Below are positions 10,795-32,941 of a DNA stretch of 33,088 nt, in pieces. Within the stretch, counting starts at the first letter, position 1; the number at the start of each line of letters is the position of its first letter. The position numbers and the translations under genes are program-made. The stretch is from Thermoplasma sp. (lineage in GTDB: Archaea; Thermoplasmatota; Thermoplasmata; Thermoplasmatales; Thermoplasmataceae), in NCBI RefSeq assembly GCF_023256435.1, contig NZ_JAGDXM010000054.1, forward strand, positions 1 through 33,088. The letters run 5' to 3'. The notes below the pieces were generated by a model. That model ran no database searches, was not told the origin of the DNA, and worked only from the letters and a program-made list of their open reading frames with translations.

Positions 10795-11721
10795 ATGCAA
10801 TATAAAGATATGGAATATAGATACGAACTCACCATAGATAAGCTTCTCCAGAGCGGTGTATCATCAAACCCTGCACAGAAGATAAATTATACAGGACGAA
10901 GGGAATTCACCTTCGAGGAATTCAGCAAAAGGGTCGAAAAACTCGCAAAGGCCCTCATCTCAATAGGGGTGAAGAAAGGGGACAGAGTTGCAGTCATCGA
11001 TTGGGATACATATGTTTATCTCGAGGCGTATTTCGCCGTTCCGATGGTGGGTGCTGTTCTCCATACGGTGAATGTTAGGTATCCGCAGGATCTCATATAC
11101 TACACGATGGATCATGCCGAGGACAAATACGTCATCGTGAGGGATGAATTTGTTCCCATCCTATCCAAGAACAGGGAGGCGTTCTATTTCATAAAGGGCT
11201 GGATAGTGTATTCCGAGACAGGCCAGATCCCTGATTCGCTCTCTCCAAAGTACGTCTACGAGGATCTCATGAAGGATTCCTATTCCGATATAGAACTTCC
11301 GCAAATATCGGAAAACGATCTGGCCACAACCTTTTACACCTCCGGCACAACCGGTATACCCAAGGGGGTTCAGTTCACTCACAGGCAGATTGTGCTCCAT
11401 TCTATTTCATCTGGTCTAGCTCTGGGTGATGACCCAATAAACCTAACCTCTAGAGATACCATAATGCCGCTTGTTCCCATGTTCCACGTGCATGCATGTG
11501 GCGTACCATACATGTCCATACTGGCCGGAAGGAGATACGTACTTCCTGGAAGGTACGATTTCGATCATATAATCGATCTAATCGACAAGTACAATGTGAG
11601 CGTAATAGCAATGGTACCTTCGATCCTCTATCTCATCGTCACGAATCCGAACGTGAAGAAGATAGCAGGACGCGGAATAAGAGCCATTGTCGGCGGCGGT
11701 GCCCTGCCAGAAGGTAGATGA
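10795..11721 (+). pseudogene. Acyl-CoA synthetase (AMP-forming), 5' part of a broken gene
   Basis: The frame encodes the N-terminal ~307 residues of an ANL-superfamily fatty acyl-CoA ligase, which activates free fatty acids to acyl-AMP and then acyl-CoA. Visible are the N-domain, the ATP-binding A3 loop FYTSGTTGIPKGVQFTHR, MVPSILYLI, and the end of the large domain VGGGALPEG, where the frame abruptly meets TGA. Homologues continue here for about 60 residues through the A5 motif (YGxTE); these are missing, and the frame resumes out of phase in the following entry. A TATA-like box around 10778-10786 suits a leaderless start at the in-frame ATG 10810 slightly better than the ATG at 10795. It could still make a truncated protein, but adenylation activity is unlikely. 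Confidence 0.8.
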
Positions 11722-12220
11722 CAAGATGAACGATGTCCCGAAGGACGAGAAGACCATAGGTGAGATCGTTGTAAGATCCCCATGGCTCACCAGCGTATAC
11801 GTTAAGAACAACGAAGGCACTGAATCATTATGGCGTGGAGGCTGGATGCACACTGGCGATCTTGCTGTGATGGATGAATATGGATACATACGCATCGTTG
11901 ACAGGGAGAAGGATGCCGTCAAATCGGGCGGTGAATTCATACCATCGCTCGTACTTGAAGACGCCATAAGTTCTTGTCCTGGCGTGATTGAAAATGCGGT
12001 TGTTGGAAAACCGGATGAGAAATGGGGTGAGAGACCCGTGGCATTCTACACAGGAACGGCAAAGCCAGACGATATCAGAAAGCACCTCCTTGACATGGTC
12101 AATGCAGGTAGGATCGCCAAGTTCTGGATCCCTGATGATTTTATAAATGTGAAGGAGTTTGCCAAGACAAGCACGGGAAAGATAGATAAAAAGGTTCTAA
12201 GGGAAATGATTAAAAAATGA
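11687..12220 (+). pseudogene. Acyl-CoA synthetase (AMP-forming), 3' part of a broken gene
   Basis: The +1-shifted frame carries the rest of the ligase. True homology begins near 11711 with KVDDKMNDVPKDEKTIGEI, then SPWLTSVYVKN, the A7 motif HTGDLA, the A8 hinge YGYIRIVDREKDAVKSGGEF and the A10 lysine loop KTSTGKIDKK. The ~8 codons before 11711 are just the other part's sequence read in the wrong frame. An ATG at 11726 could in principle restart translation. Retained parts sum to about 475 residues against roughly 540 in intact relatives, so bases encoding ~60 residues, including A5, are gone and the phase is lost. It ends exactly where the convergent dehydrogenase/hydratase gene ends. Confidence 0.8.
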
Positions 12221-15395: not shown

Positions 15396-17072
15396 ATGAC
15401 CAGATTCGTGCTCGTATCTGACACCACACTTAGTTATGAATACAGACATTTTCCACTGCTGGACTTTCTACCATGTGCCCCTGGAAAAGCGATACCCGGG
15501 CCAATATACCGCTTTCTGAAAGGCCCAGAACCTCCCAATGTCAATGGTATAGTGAAGTATGCACCATACGCCATAAGGAAGATAGAGGCGTCACTTGTCA
15601 GAGCTTTCGGAAGAGACAGCGTAGTGGTCGTCGATGAGGATTATCTGGGCGAATACGTTGACGAGAAGACGGAAGTGATAGGAGTATCCACCATGGATCC
15701 GCTTGGCCTTGGACCAACAACGATGTCCTATTATGCGCTGTTTGGAGGAGATCTGGACGCCTGGGTCAGACGCGAATGGGACAGCCTTATGGAAAAGGTT
15801 AACAAGGCGAGGGAGGGCAAGAAAGCCAAGCTGATAGTCGGAGGCCCTGGAGTATGGGAATTCACCATATTGAGGGATGAGATCGACAAGTACAAGGTGG
15901 ATTACTATGTGCAGGGAGAGACGGACGATGTTGTTGCAGAGCTTTTCAGGCAGGTAGCCGAAGACAACATCGATAAGCAGATGTTCTTCAATGGATACAT
16001 GAGCTATGATGAGAATTTCCATAAGGTATTGAAGAAGGACGAAAAATTCCTAGCAAGGGGAATAACACAGTCAGCATATCCAAGGCTTGAGGATATACCG
16101 GAGATTATAAACCCATCCATGAAGGGCATGGTTGAGGTGATGCGTGGATGCGGAGTAGGCTGCGATTTCTGCGAAGTCACGCTCAGACCGTTAAGATACA
16201 TGCCGCTGAACATGATCGTGGATGAGATAAAGATCAACGTTGCAGGAGGCGTAGATAACGCTTGGCTGCATTCTGACGAAATATTTGGTTACAAGCATGG
16301 CCATTTCTTTGAGCCAAACGAAGAAGCGCTGAGCGAACTGTTCTCCACAGTTATGAGTGTTCCAGGCGTTAAAACCTCAAATCCAACCCACGGAAGAATA
16401 TCCATACCGGCAGGATACCCGGAGATGATGGAGAAATTCTCAAAGATACTCAAGGCTGGCCCTAGGAACTGGATAGGTATTCAAACTGGACTTGAAACCG
16501 GCAGCGAAGAGCTGGCAAAGAAGCATATGCCCAACAAGACGCTTCCGCTTAGGATAGGCGTAGACGGATCCTGGCAGGATATCGTATGGCAGGGAGTGGC
16601 TGTTGAGACCAAGTATTACTGGAGATCTGCTTTCACCATACAGGTTGGGCAGGAGGGTGAAACGCCTGAGGATCTCTGGGACACGATCGCGCTGATCAAC
16701 AAGCTCAGCAACTCCTATGTTGACGGCCGTCCATTCGAGTTCACCGTGACTCCGCTCGTTAACGTGCCACTGGGAAGGATCAAATCGAAGAAATTTAATA
16801 CCAGCATGCTGGATGTGAATGGCCTGGCAGTCTATTACGCATCCTACAGGCATCTTGCCAAGATGGCGGCAAGAGACGGATTCAAGGATGCCCATGGCAA
16901 CGCTTTCCTGAAGCTTGCCACCGGCGGCCTCATCTCCTTCGGAGGAAGGCTGATGATGGACTTCATAGAGAAGAAGGCCCAGAAAGCAGGCGTGGACATA
17001 GATAAGGTAAAGAGATGGGGCGTGGAAGGAACTGATGAGATAACTTCTCTGGCACAGTTCGCCAGAGCCTGA
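15396..17072 (+). CDS. B12-binding-type radical SAM protein, unknown substrate
   Basis: A 558-residue protein. Residues ~1-200 include a Rossmann-like segment typical of cobalamin-binding domains fused to radical SAM enzymes: VIGVSTMDPLGLGPTT (94-109), LIVGGPGVWEF (146-156) and YYVQGETDD (170-178). The DxHxxG motif is absent, as in many class B methylase-like members. The radical SAM core follows, with the [4Fe-4S] ligands Cys252, Cys256 and Cys259 in RGCGVGCDFCEVTLRP (CxxxCxxC). A C-terminal region of ~150 residues has no motif I know. Such enzymes methylate or join unactivated carbons; size and architecture resemble the archaeal GDGT ring synthases that build cyclopentane rings in tetraether lipids, which Thermoplasma makes. 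That is inference; only the superfamily call is firm. Divergent from the CBS/Zn-ribbon gene. Confidence 0.88.
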   Translation: MTRFVLVSDTTLSYEYRHFPLLDFLPCAPGKAIPGPIYRFLKGPEPPNVNGIVKYAPYAIRKIEASLVRAFGRDSVVVVDEDYLGEYVDEKTEVIGVSTMDPLGLGPTTMSYYALFGGDLDAWVRREWDSLMEKVNKAREGKKAKLIVGGPGVWEFTILRDEIDKYKVDYYVQGETDDVVAELFRQVAEDNIDKQMFFNGYMSYDENFHKVLKKDEKFLARGITQSAYPRLEDIPEIINPSMKGMVEVMRGCGVGCDFCEVTLRPLRYMPLNMIVDEIKINVAGGVDNAWLHSDEIFGYKHGHFFEPNEEALSELFSTVMSVPGVKTSNPTHGRISIPAGYPEMMEKFSKILKAGPRNWIGIQTGLETGSEELAKKHMPNKTLPLRIGVDGSWQDIVWQGVAVETKYYWRSAFTIQVGQEGETPEDLWDTIALINKLSNSYVDGRPFEFTVTPLVNVPLGRIKSKKFNTSMLDVNGLAVYYASYRHLAKMAARDGFKDAHGNAFLKLATGGLISFGGRLMMDFIEKKAQKAGVDIDKVKRWGVEGTDEITSLAQFARA

Positions 17073-31990: not shown

Positions 31991-32941
31991 ATGAAAACAA
32001 TGATATGGAATATCGATTATTTCTGTAATTTGAGATGCAAGAGTTGCAATGCATGGCAGGGCAAGATTTTCTTTCCTGAGGATCAAATAGATAAACATAT
32101 AAGGGAAATGAAAGAAAATGGCATCAAGATCGTTTCAGTAACAGGTGGAGAACCAACCCTCAACAAGAACGTAGTAGATATAATTCGTAAATTGAAGGAG
32201 AATCATTTCTTCACTCATATAGCTACAAATGGAACGAACCCATATGTGTTAAGGAAGCTTTATCCATATCTTGATGCTGTGACCATATCTCTAGATAGCA
32301 ATGTACCAGAGGAACACAATGCCTATAGAGGCTTGAAAATTTTTGATACTGTAGTTTCAAATATTAAGGAAGCAAAGAATAAAGTGAAAATAGTAACAGC
32401 GAATATGCTCGTCACGAATTTCAACTATTTCAAGGTAGGCGAGATCGCAGACTTCGCGAACAATGAACTTGGCGTTCCTCTATCGATGTGCTTTCCGGAA
32501 CAGGATGCATATTATTTCCAAGACTTCCAAGTGACAAACGAAATGATAAGAAAGGCTTTCAGTTATGCCTATGAAAACTATCACAGGCATGTCTTCGGCA
32601 ACATGCGCACCTATTACAAAGAAGCTGTGGATTTCATTGATGGCAAGGGTTCAAGGGCATGCAAGGCCGGCCAAGAAATATTTTACACAGACTATAGAGG
32701 CAAGGTTCATCCATGTTTTGAACACGTAGAAGTTGTCCTTAATAAGAAGCCACAGTGGGATATATATGATAATCAGTGCCATAAATGCTTCACTGAGTGC
32801 TTCCTCGAGCCTTCCATCGATCATACTTTTGAAGCAGCATCGTTAATTGGAAAGATATGGTGGTTTAACCACGTGAAGAGAAGGGATATAAAATATATAG
32901 ATTCAAGAAGACCGAAGCAGAATGTACCTGAAATTCAGTGA
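31991..32941 (+). CDS. Radical SAM protein with Cys-rich (SPASM/Twitch-like) C-terminus
   Basis: A 316-residue enzyme that cleaves S-adenosylmethionine with a [4Fe-4S] cluster held by Cys12, Cys16 and Cys19 (DYFCNLRCKSCNAW). VSVTGGEPTL (48-57) is the SAM-binding GGEP motif; ATNGT and TISLDSN follow as further core strands. After the barrel come more cysteines: Cys224 (SRACKAGQE), Cys242 (VHPCFEH), and Cys263, Cys266 and Cys270 (QCHKCFTEC), a spacing that suggests an auxiliary cluster as in SPASM/Twitch or HpnH-like proteins. The substrate is unknown; peptide-modifying, cofactor and lipid enzymes share this plan. Its coding sequence is more AT-rich than the metabolic genes of the window. A perfect hairpin spans the stop codon. 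Confidence 0.85.
   Translation: MKTMIWNIDYFCNLRCKSCNAWQGKIFFPEDQIDKHIREMKENGIKIVSVTGGEPTLNKNVVDIIRKLKENHFFTHIATNGTNPYVLRKLYPYLDAVTISLDSNVPEEHNAYRGLKIFDTVVSNIKEAKNKVKIVTANMLVTNFNYFKVGEIADFANNELGVPLSMCFPEQDAYYFQDFQVTNEMIRKAFSYAYENYHRHVFGNMRTYYKEAVDFIDGKGSRACKAGQEIFYTDYRGKVHPCFEHVEVVLNKKPQWDIYDNQCHKCFTECFLEPSIDHTFEAASLIGKIWWFNHVKRRDIKYIDSRRPKQNVPEIQ

Follow-up and report, generated by a model that had tools for sequence, protein, structure and literature searches.

The protein encoded at positions 15,396 to 17,072 of the 33,088-nucleotide Thermoplasma sp. stretch analysed here (the window) belongs to a third clade of Grs-type radical SAM proteins, which we call clade C and which lies beside the clades of the archaeal ring synthases GrsA and GrsB. 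This protein (W; host genome G000, 1.55 Mb) is present in nearly all genomes of its own and the sister family, where no GrsA-type protein was found, and we consider it probable that W is a clade-C GDGT ring synthase which, in Thermoplasmatales, would most likely make the first ring of each arm, at C-7, the position served by GrsA. GDGT rings underlie archaeal acid and heat tolerance as well as the TEX86 sea-temperature proxy. The excerpts of the literature examined describe two characterised ring synthases, both from Sulfolobus.

The gene and its protein

The features of W referred to below are as follows.

15396..17072, + strand: W gene with its stop codon, encoding the 558-aa Grs-type radical SAM protein of clade C (ATG start, conserved ORF)
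15474..15482, + strand: N-terminal C27-A28-P29, invariant in 15 aligned clade-C proteins
15693..15698, + strand: M100-D101, with D101 kept in all Grs groups (residue alignment)
15789..15944, + strand: residues 132-183, weak likeness to the second half of the B12-binding (Rossmann) domain (Pfam E 0.051, below cut-off)
16131..16697, + strand: radical SAM core, residues 246-434 (Pfam, E 5e-9)
16149..16172, + strand: CxxxCxxC, residues 252-259, expected [4Fe-4S] cluster ligands (residue alignment, cysteine count)
16698..17069, + strand: C-terminal region, residues 435-558, varying between Grs clades (alignment)

The reading frame is a conserved gene and not a chance frame, since third codon positions hold 261 of the 284 nucleotide differences between W and its orthologue from the same genus (L029; nucleotide identity 83%, protein identity 98%) and dN/dS for the pair is 0.007, indicating strong purifying selection. 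Length is nearly equal in W orthologues throughout the family. A match to PF04055 (Radical_SAM) above the cut-off, covering residues 246 to 434 at E 5e-9, makes W a member of the radical SAM superfamily, and the preliminary description of this frame as a radical SAM protein of about 560 residues with a CxxxCxxC motif is confirmed, the exact length being 558 aa. W has four cysteines only (27, 252, 256 and 259), three of them in CxxxCxxC, and because a single cysteine lies outside this motif an auxiliary cysteine-bound cluster is unlikely. This is a feature in which W matches GrsA and GrsB, neither of which has an auxiliary cluster according to excerpts of PMC11186832; the same excerpts describe two long hydrophobic C-terminal helices in GrsA, to which residues 435-558 of W may be equivalent.

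The cobalamin-type Rossmann region that was also claimed for W is weakly visible, with PF02310 (B12-binding) giving E 0.051, below the cut-off, and reaching E <= 0.01 in 4 of the 25 Grs family members tested. With respect to family models, the closest NCBIfam matches of W are B12-binding radical SAM families, the best being TIGR04013 (B12_SAM_MJ_1487), which matches 25/25 Grs proteins tested, and TIGR04072 (ladderane lipid). Membership of W in TIGR04013, TIGR04014 and TIGR04072 was rejected at 39/251, 28/360 and 32/360 bits, respectively, all far below the cut-offs. Judged by these nearest families, cobalamin use by W is plausible. The structure predicted for W from its single sequence was too poor for use (mean pLDDT 33.5, pTM 0.23), and searches of solved structures returned general radical SAM and MiaB-type proteins only.

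The CBS and aldo/keto reductase neighbours of W are kept in 4/4 other Thermoplasma loci and were found in 0/33 of the other W loci examined. Since they are kept in Thermoplasma only, we rejected gene neighbourhood as functional evidence. Elsewhere in the window, an acyl-CoA synthetase gene is split (10795-12220, + strand; AMP-binding domain 10795-11721, C-terminal domain 11687-12220) by a frameshift that is either real or derived from sequencing, and a gene at 31991-32941 (+ strand) encodes an unrelated second radical SAM protein (316 aa), which matches Fer4_12 and whose C-terminus weakly resembles DUF3463.

Clade C and its relationship to GrsA and GrsB

As a yardstick we used genome G091, reached together with other Sulfolobales through a Sac7d search, which we take to be that of S. 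acidocaldarius DSM 639. A search of G091 with a W paralogue of the host genome (paralogue A, described below) recovered Grs-type genes at 199 kb and 1.354 Mb and a shorter third one at 1.83 Mb; by chromosomal order, we take the first to be Saci_0240 (GrsB) and the second to be Saci_1585 (GrsA). An OMP decarboxylase gene lies 7 kb from the presumed Saci_1585, consistent with our assumption that pyrEF corresponds to Saci_1597/1598.

W is 28.5% identical to GrsA over 466 aligned residues and 28.9% identical to GrsB over 457 (174 bits in both cases), with shared residues spanning P34 to P453, and judged by these alignments it is a member of the Grs superfamily with homology that extends beyond the radical SAM core. 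Four groups were compared across the superfamily, namely clade C (40 rows), GrsA (17), GrsB (14) and a further group, N2 (10), and 28 residues of W are kept by 90% or more of the rows in every one of them; among these residues are the three cluster cysteines, D101, W154, G174-E175, H332, E367, K381 and P384. The N-terminus, regarded earlier as distinctive of the family, is so in part: P34 recurs as a conserved residue in each of the four Grs groups, and none of the 15 clade-C proteins in alignment A2 deviates from C27-A28-P29. Position 100 is a second marker, with H in about 90% of GrsA and GrsB and M in clade C and N2. W is therefore like GrsA in its radical SAM core, its one cluster motif and the residues conserved along most of its length, but differs in forming part of a separate clade, in having M100 where GrsA has H and in a longer C-terminus (558 versus 489 aa). 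With GrsB, W has C27 and several other residues in common.

Long homologues of W at 37 to 43% identity were found by a six-frame search of 250 Thermoproteota genomes in two groups, P1 and P2, the latter from ammonia oxidisers. In a 103-row tree, W, P1, P2 and the V types fall together in a single group of 40 rows (SH-aLRT 100), separate from the GrsA group (100), GrsB together with paralogue A (100) and N2 (100). This tree was built by a quick method after the removal of 15 rows from an earlier set, these being near-duplicates, two short paralogues with few cysteines, three remote outgroup rows and T_G028b, which has a long branch. In a bootstrapped tree of 53 rows, W plus P1 is supported at 100/99 and the whole of clade C at 92/77, so that the P1 proteins are nearer to W than those of the ammonia oxidisers are; a tree of 54 rows built before P1 and P2 were included placed W and V beside, not within, the GrsA clade (92/85). 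W thus appears to belong to a third Grs clade with Thermoproteota proteins, the larger clade being not fully secured. Orthology of W to either Sulfolobus enzyme was rejected, both for joining to the Saci_1585 clade (AU p 9.7e-7) and for joining to the Saci_0240 clade (AU p 1.3e-5). Thaumarchaeal Grs have been reported to form their own cluster (excerpts of PMC8473941).

The comparison with Saci_0240 and Saci_1585 that the preliminary description proposed therefore places W in the Grs superfamily, in a third clade, and the link to the ring synthases that it drew from architecture holds at the level of the superfamily, by alignment score and conserved residues, with W being an orthologue of neither enzyme. 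The objection that was to count against this link, a better Grs orthologue elsewhere in the genome, applies in part. Paralogue A (G000:C44, 538 aa, on another contig) shares 55% identity with GrsB across 527 aa (635 bits) and is by this measure clearly the GrsB orthologue of the genome; it is a different gene from W, to which it is 28.6% identical.

A second paralogue in the host genome, B (G000:C9, 529 aa), is distant from both W and A. Its S. acidocaldarius orthologue (1,550,894-1,552,648; 53% over 535 aa) presumably is Saci_1785, which it fits by position and whose deletion reportedly left rings unchanged. As the orthologue of this protein, B (L025 7981-9570) was rejected as the missing C-7 enzyme. 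Saci_1785 served Li et al. as an outgroup (excerpts of PMC8473941).

Additional Grs-type genes were observed in other genomes. In G060, the W orthologue directly adjoins a divergent Grs-type gene (557 aa) as a tandem pair (L116, G060:C11:319-3669), and a similar second copy is found in G011 (L187). In Sulfolobales, a short Grs-like protein (364-398 aa) is without CxxxCxxC in 4/4 cases checked, namely L104:22-1215:- (the 1.83 Mb gene of G091), L074, L075 and L076, and third Grs matches of this short type occur in 17/31 genomes of the Sulfolobales family. The short protein looks like a non-catalytic GrsB paralogue, perhaps a regulator or partner.

Distribution in Thermoplasmatales and lipid rings

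In an order-wide search of 61 genomes, with W counted at at least 60% and the GrsB orthologue at at least 50% identity, W was present in 21/21 genomes of its own family (f1) and 13/15 of the sister family (f3), together 34/36. The GrsB orthologue was found in 12/21 and 2/15 of these genomes, respectively (14/36), and in 0/25 other genomes of the order. No GrsA-type protein was detected in the 36 f1 and f3 genomes by a search that did find such proteins in families f4 and f5. The GrsB orthologue is absent from all 12 genomes of genus g12, which have W-type matches in 11/12 cases and include G015, presumably Cuniculiplasma divulgatum. Both proteins are present in G031, which we take to be Picrophilus. 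G050, a single contig of 1,959,588 bp, lacks the GrsB orthologue and carries a W whose cluster cysteines are all present. In f5, to which a probable Aciduliprofundum boonei genome belongs, W homologues have 38-45% identity in matched stretches, and a GrsA orthologue and a clade-C protein stand side by side. At the level of the phylum, 173/292 genomes have no match, among them all 17 listed members of f8, indicating that W is not a general housekeeping enzyme. G100 (family f1, genus g32; 96% complete) showed no W or GrsB-type match.

With respect to lipids, excerpts of published accounts attribute ring closure at C-7 to GrsA and at C-3 to GrsB (PMC9385802, PMC8473941) and report that GrsB favours substrates that already carry C-7 rings (PMC8473941). 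Picrophilus torridus GDGT is given as having 0-8 rings (PMC5003844) and that of Oxyplasma 0-4, GDGT-2 and GDGT-4 being the main forms; Cuniculiplasma and other Thermoplasmatales are said to have a distribution similar to that of Oxyplasma (PMC11349054).

Because of this preference of GrsB, a C-7 enzyme would be needed in Picrophilus, and because no GrsA orthologue was found in f1 and f3, W is the most likely C-7 enzyme of Thermoplasmatales, where it would probably do the job of GrsA. In g12, with no GrsB orthologue, no Grs-type protein other than W was found that might account for the rings reported for Cuniculiplasma, and a limit of four rings agrees with the single ring in each arm that a C-7 enzyme should produce. 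From this distribution we infer a pathway in which W would close the first cyclopentane on each GDGT arm, at C-7, and the GrsB orthologue, where present, would add a second ring at C-3.

Against this proposal, W and GrsA are only 28% identical. Furthermore, f5 has retained a GrsA orthologue alongside its clade-C protein, so that the functions of the two may differ. W could therefore form GDGT rings without being the equivalent of GrsA, for instance by acting elsewhere on the chain or by working second, with the help of a partner, a reading with which its place outside the GrsA clade and the M100 that clade C shares with N2 (H in GrsA and GrsB) also agree. Yet GDGTs with at least four rings are made in f1 and f3, where no GrsA-type protein was found, and GrsB prefers C-7-ringed substrates, so that we regard this alternative as rather unlikely.

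The published ring counts mostly fit the distribution of W, with one related organism, reported as nearly ring-free, to the contrary. In Ca. Scheffleriplasma hospitalis, a close relative of Cuniculiplasma, GDGT-0 makes up as much as 97% of lipids, as measured by a method that would detect 0-4 rings (excerpts of PMC8975820). G050 may be Ca. Scheffleriplasma, in which case W would either be silent in the culture studied or make no rings. In the latter case W might carry out another radical reaction, such as methylation, on GDGT or on a different isoprenoid such as a quinone, with rings coming from the GrsB orthologue or an unrelated enzyme. The family-model scores of W, all weak and some of them to methyltransferases, would suit such a role, as would gene neighbours that are not lipid genes. 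Against it, both characterised proteins of the superfamily cyclise GDGT, the ammonia oxidisers that share W's clade make ringed GDGTs, and Cuniculiplasma is described with ringed GDGTs although the GrsB orthologue is found in 0/12 genomes of its probable genus. We consider this role unlikely, and prefer ring closure at C-7; the proposed ring formation by W is now better grounded than it was by architecture alone, and the Scheffleriplasma report counts against it.

Clade C and N2 in ammonia oxidisers

Archaeal AmoA (PF12942) was found in 37/37 P2 genomes given, 0/17 P1 genomes, 0/12 other genomes and 0/14 controls, and since AmoA is present in all P2 genomes and nowhere else among those examined, P2 is a Grs of ammonia oxidisers. 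When 13 AmoA-positive genomes were searched with GrsA, all 13 had a clade-C and an N2-type protein, these being the only two in 11/13; three matches were found in G621 and six in G592. Four P1 genomes searched in the same way had the clade-C protein only (N2 in 0/4). The search for N2 covered 20 genomes, and placement by tree covers 9 P2 and 10 N2-type rows, the remaining members being assigned by frame length and score only. N2-type loci are L254, L255, L259, L261, L262, L264, L266, L267 and L274, along with L285 (G592). No GrsA-clade protein was seen among the ammonia oxidisers in the tree.

Ammonia oxidisers are described as having cyclopentanes at C-7, four at most, plus one cyclohexane at C-11, and a 2022 review calls the enzyme for the crenarchaeol cyclohexane unidentified and expects a GrsA homologue beside it (both from excerpts of PMC9385802). 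If W's clade makes cyclopentanes, N2 becomes a candidate for the cyclohexane, as no GrsA-clade protein was seen. That clade C makes the C-7 cyclopentanes in Thermoplasmatales and ammonia oxidisers alike, with N2 by elimination the cyclohexane synthase of crenarchaeol, the marine biomarker lipid, is a possibility to which we give somewhat less than an even chance. If true, clade C would be a third ring enzyme beside GrsA and GrsB. Some organisms that probably make rings have clade C and no GrsB orthologue, and in ammonia oxidisers clade C is accompanied by a single other Grs type; this makes both the rings of Thermoplasmatales and the cyclohexane accessible to simple expression tests. A grsA grsB double deletion mutant of S. 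acidocaldarius exists and yields GDGT-0 (excerpts of PMC11186832). No test of a clade-C, Thermoplasmatales or ammonia-oxidiser Grs was found in the literature examined, which does not cover Zeng et al. 2019, the Grs paper.

The six Grs-type genes of G592, a deep ammonia oxidiser of 1,577,284 bp that is perhaps, on our assumption, Nitrosocaldus, lie on G592:C1 (L239, L282-L285), with two of them adjoining at 1.110-1.113 Mb. In addition, an NAD-binding oxidoreductase with a DHODB-type Fe-S domain adjoins the clade-C gene in three ammonia-oxidiser loci read (L242:3115-3927:-, L245:3248-4072:- and L251:478-1290:+); a role in pyrimidine synthesis or as an electron donor is possible.
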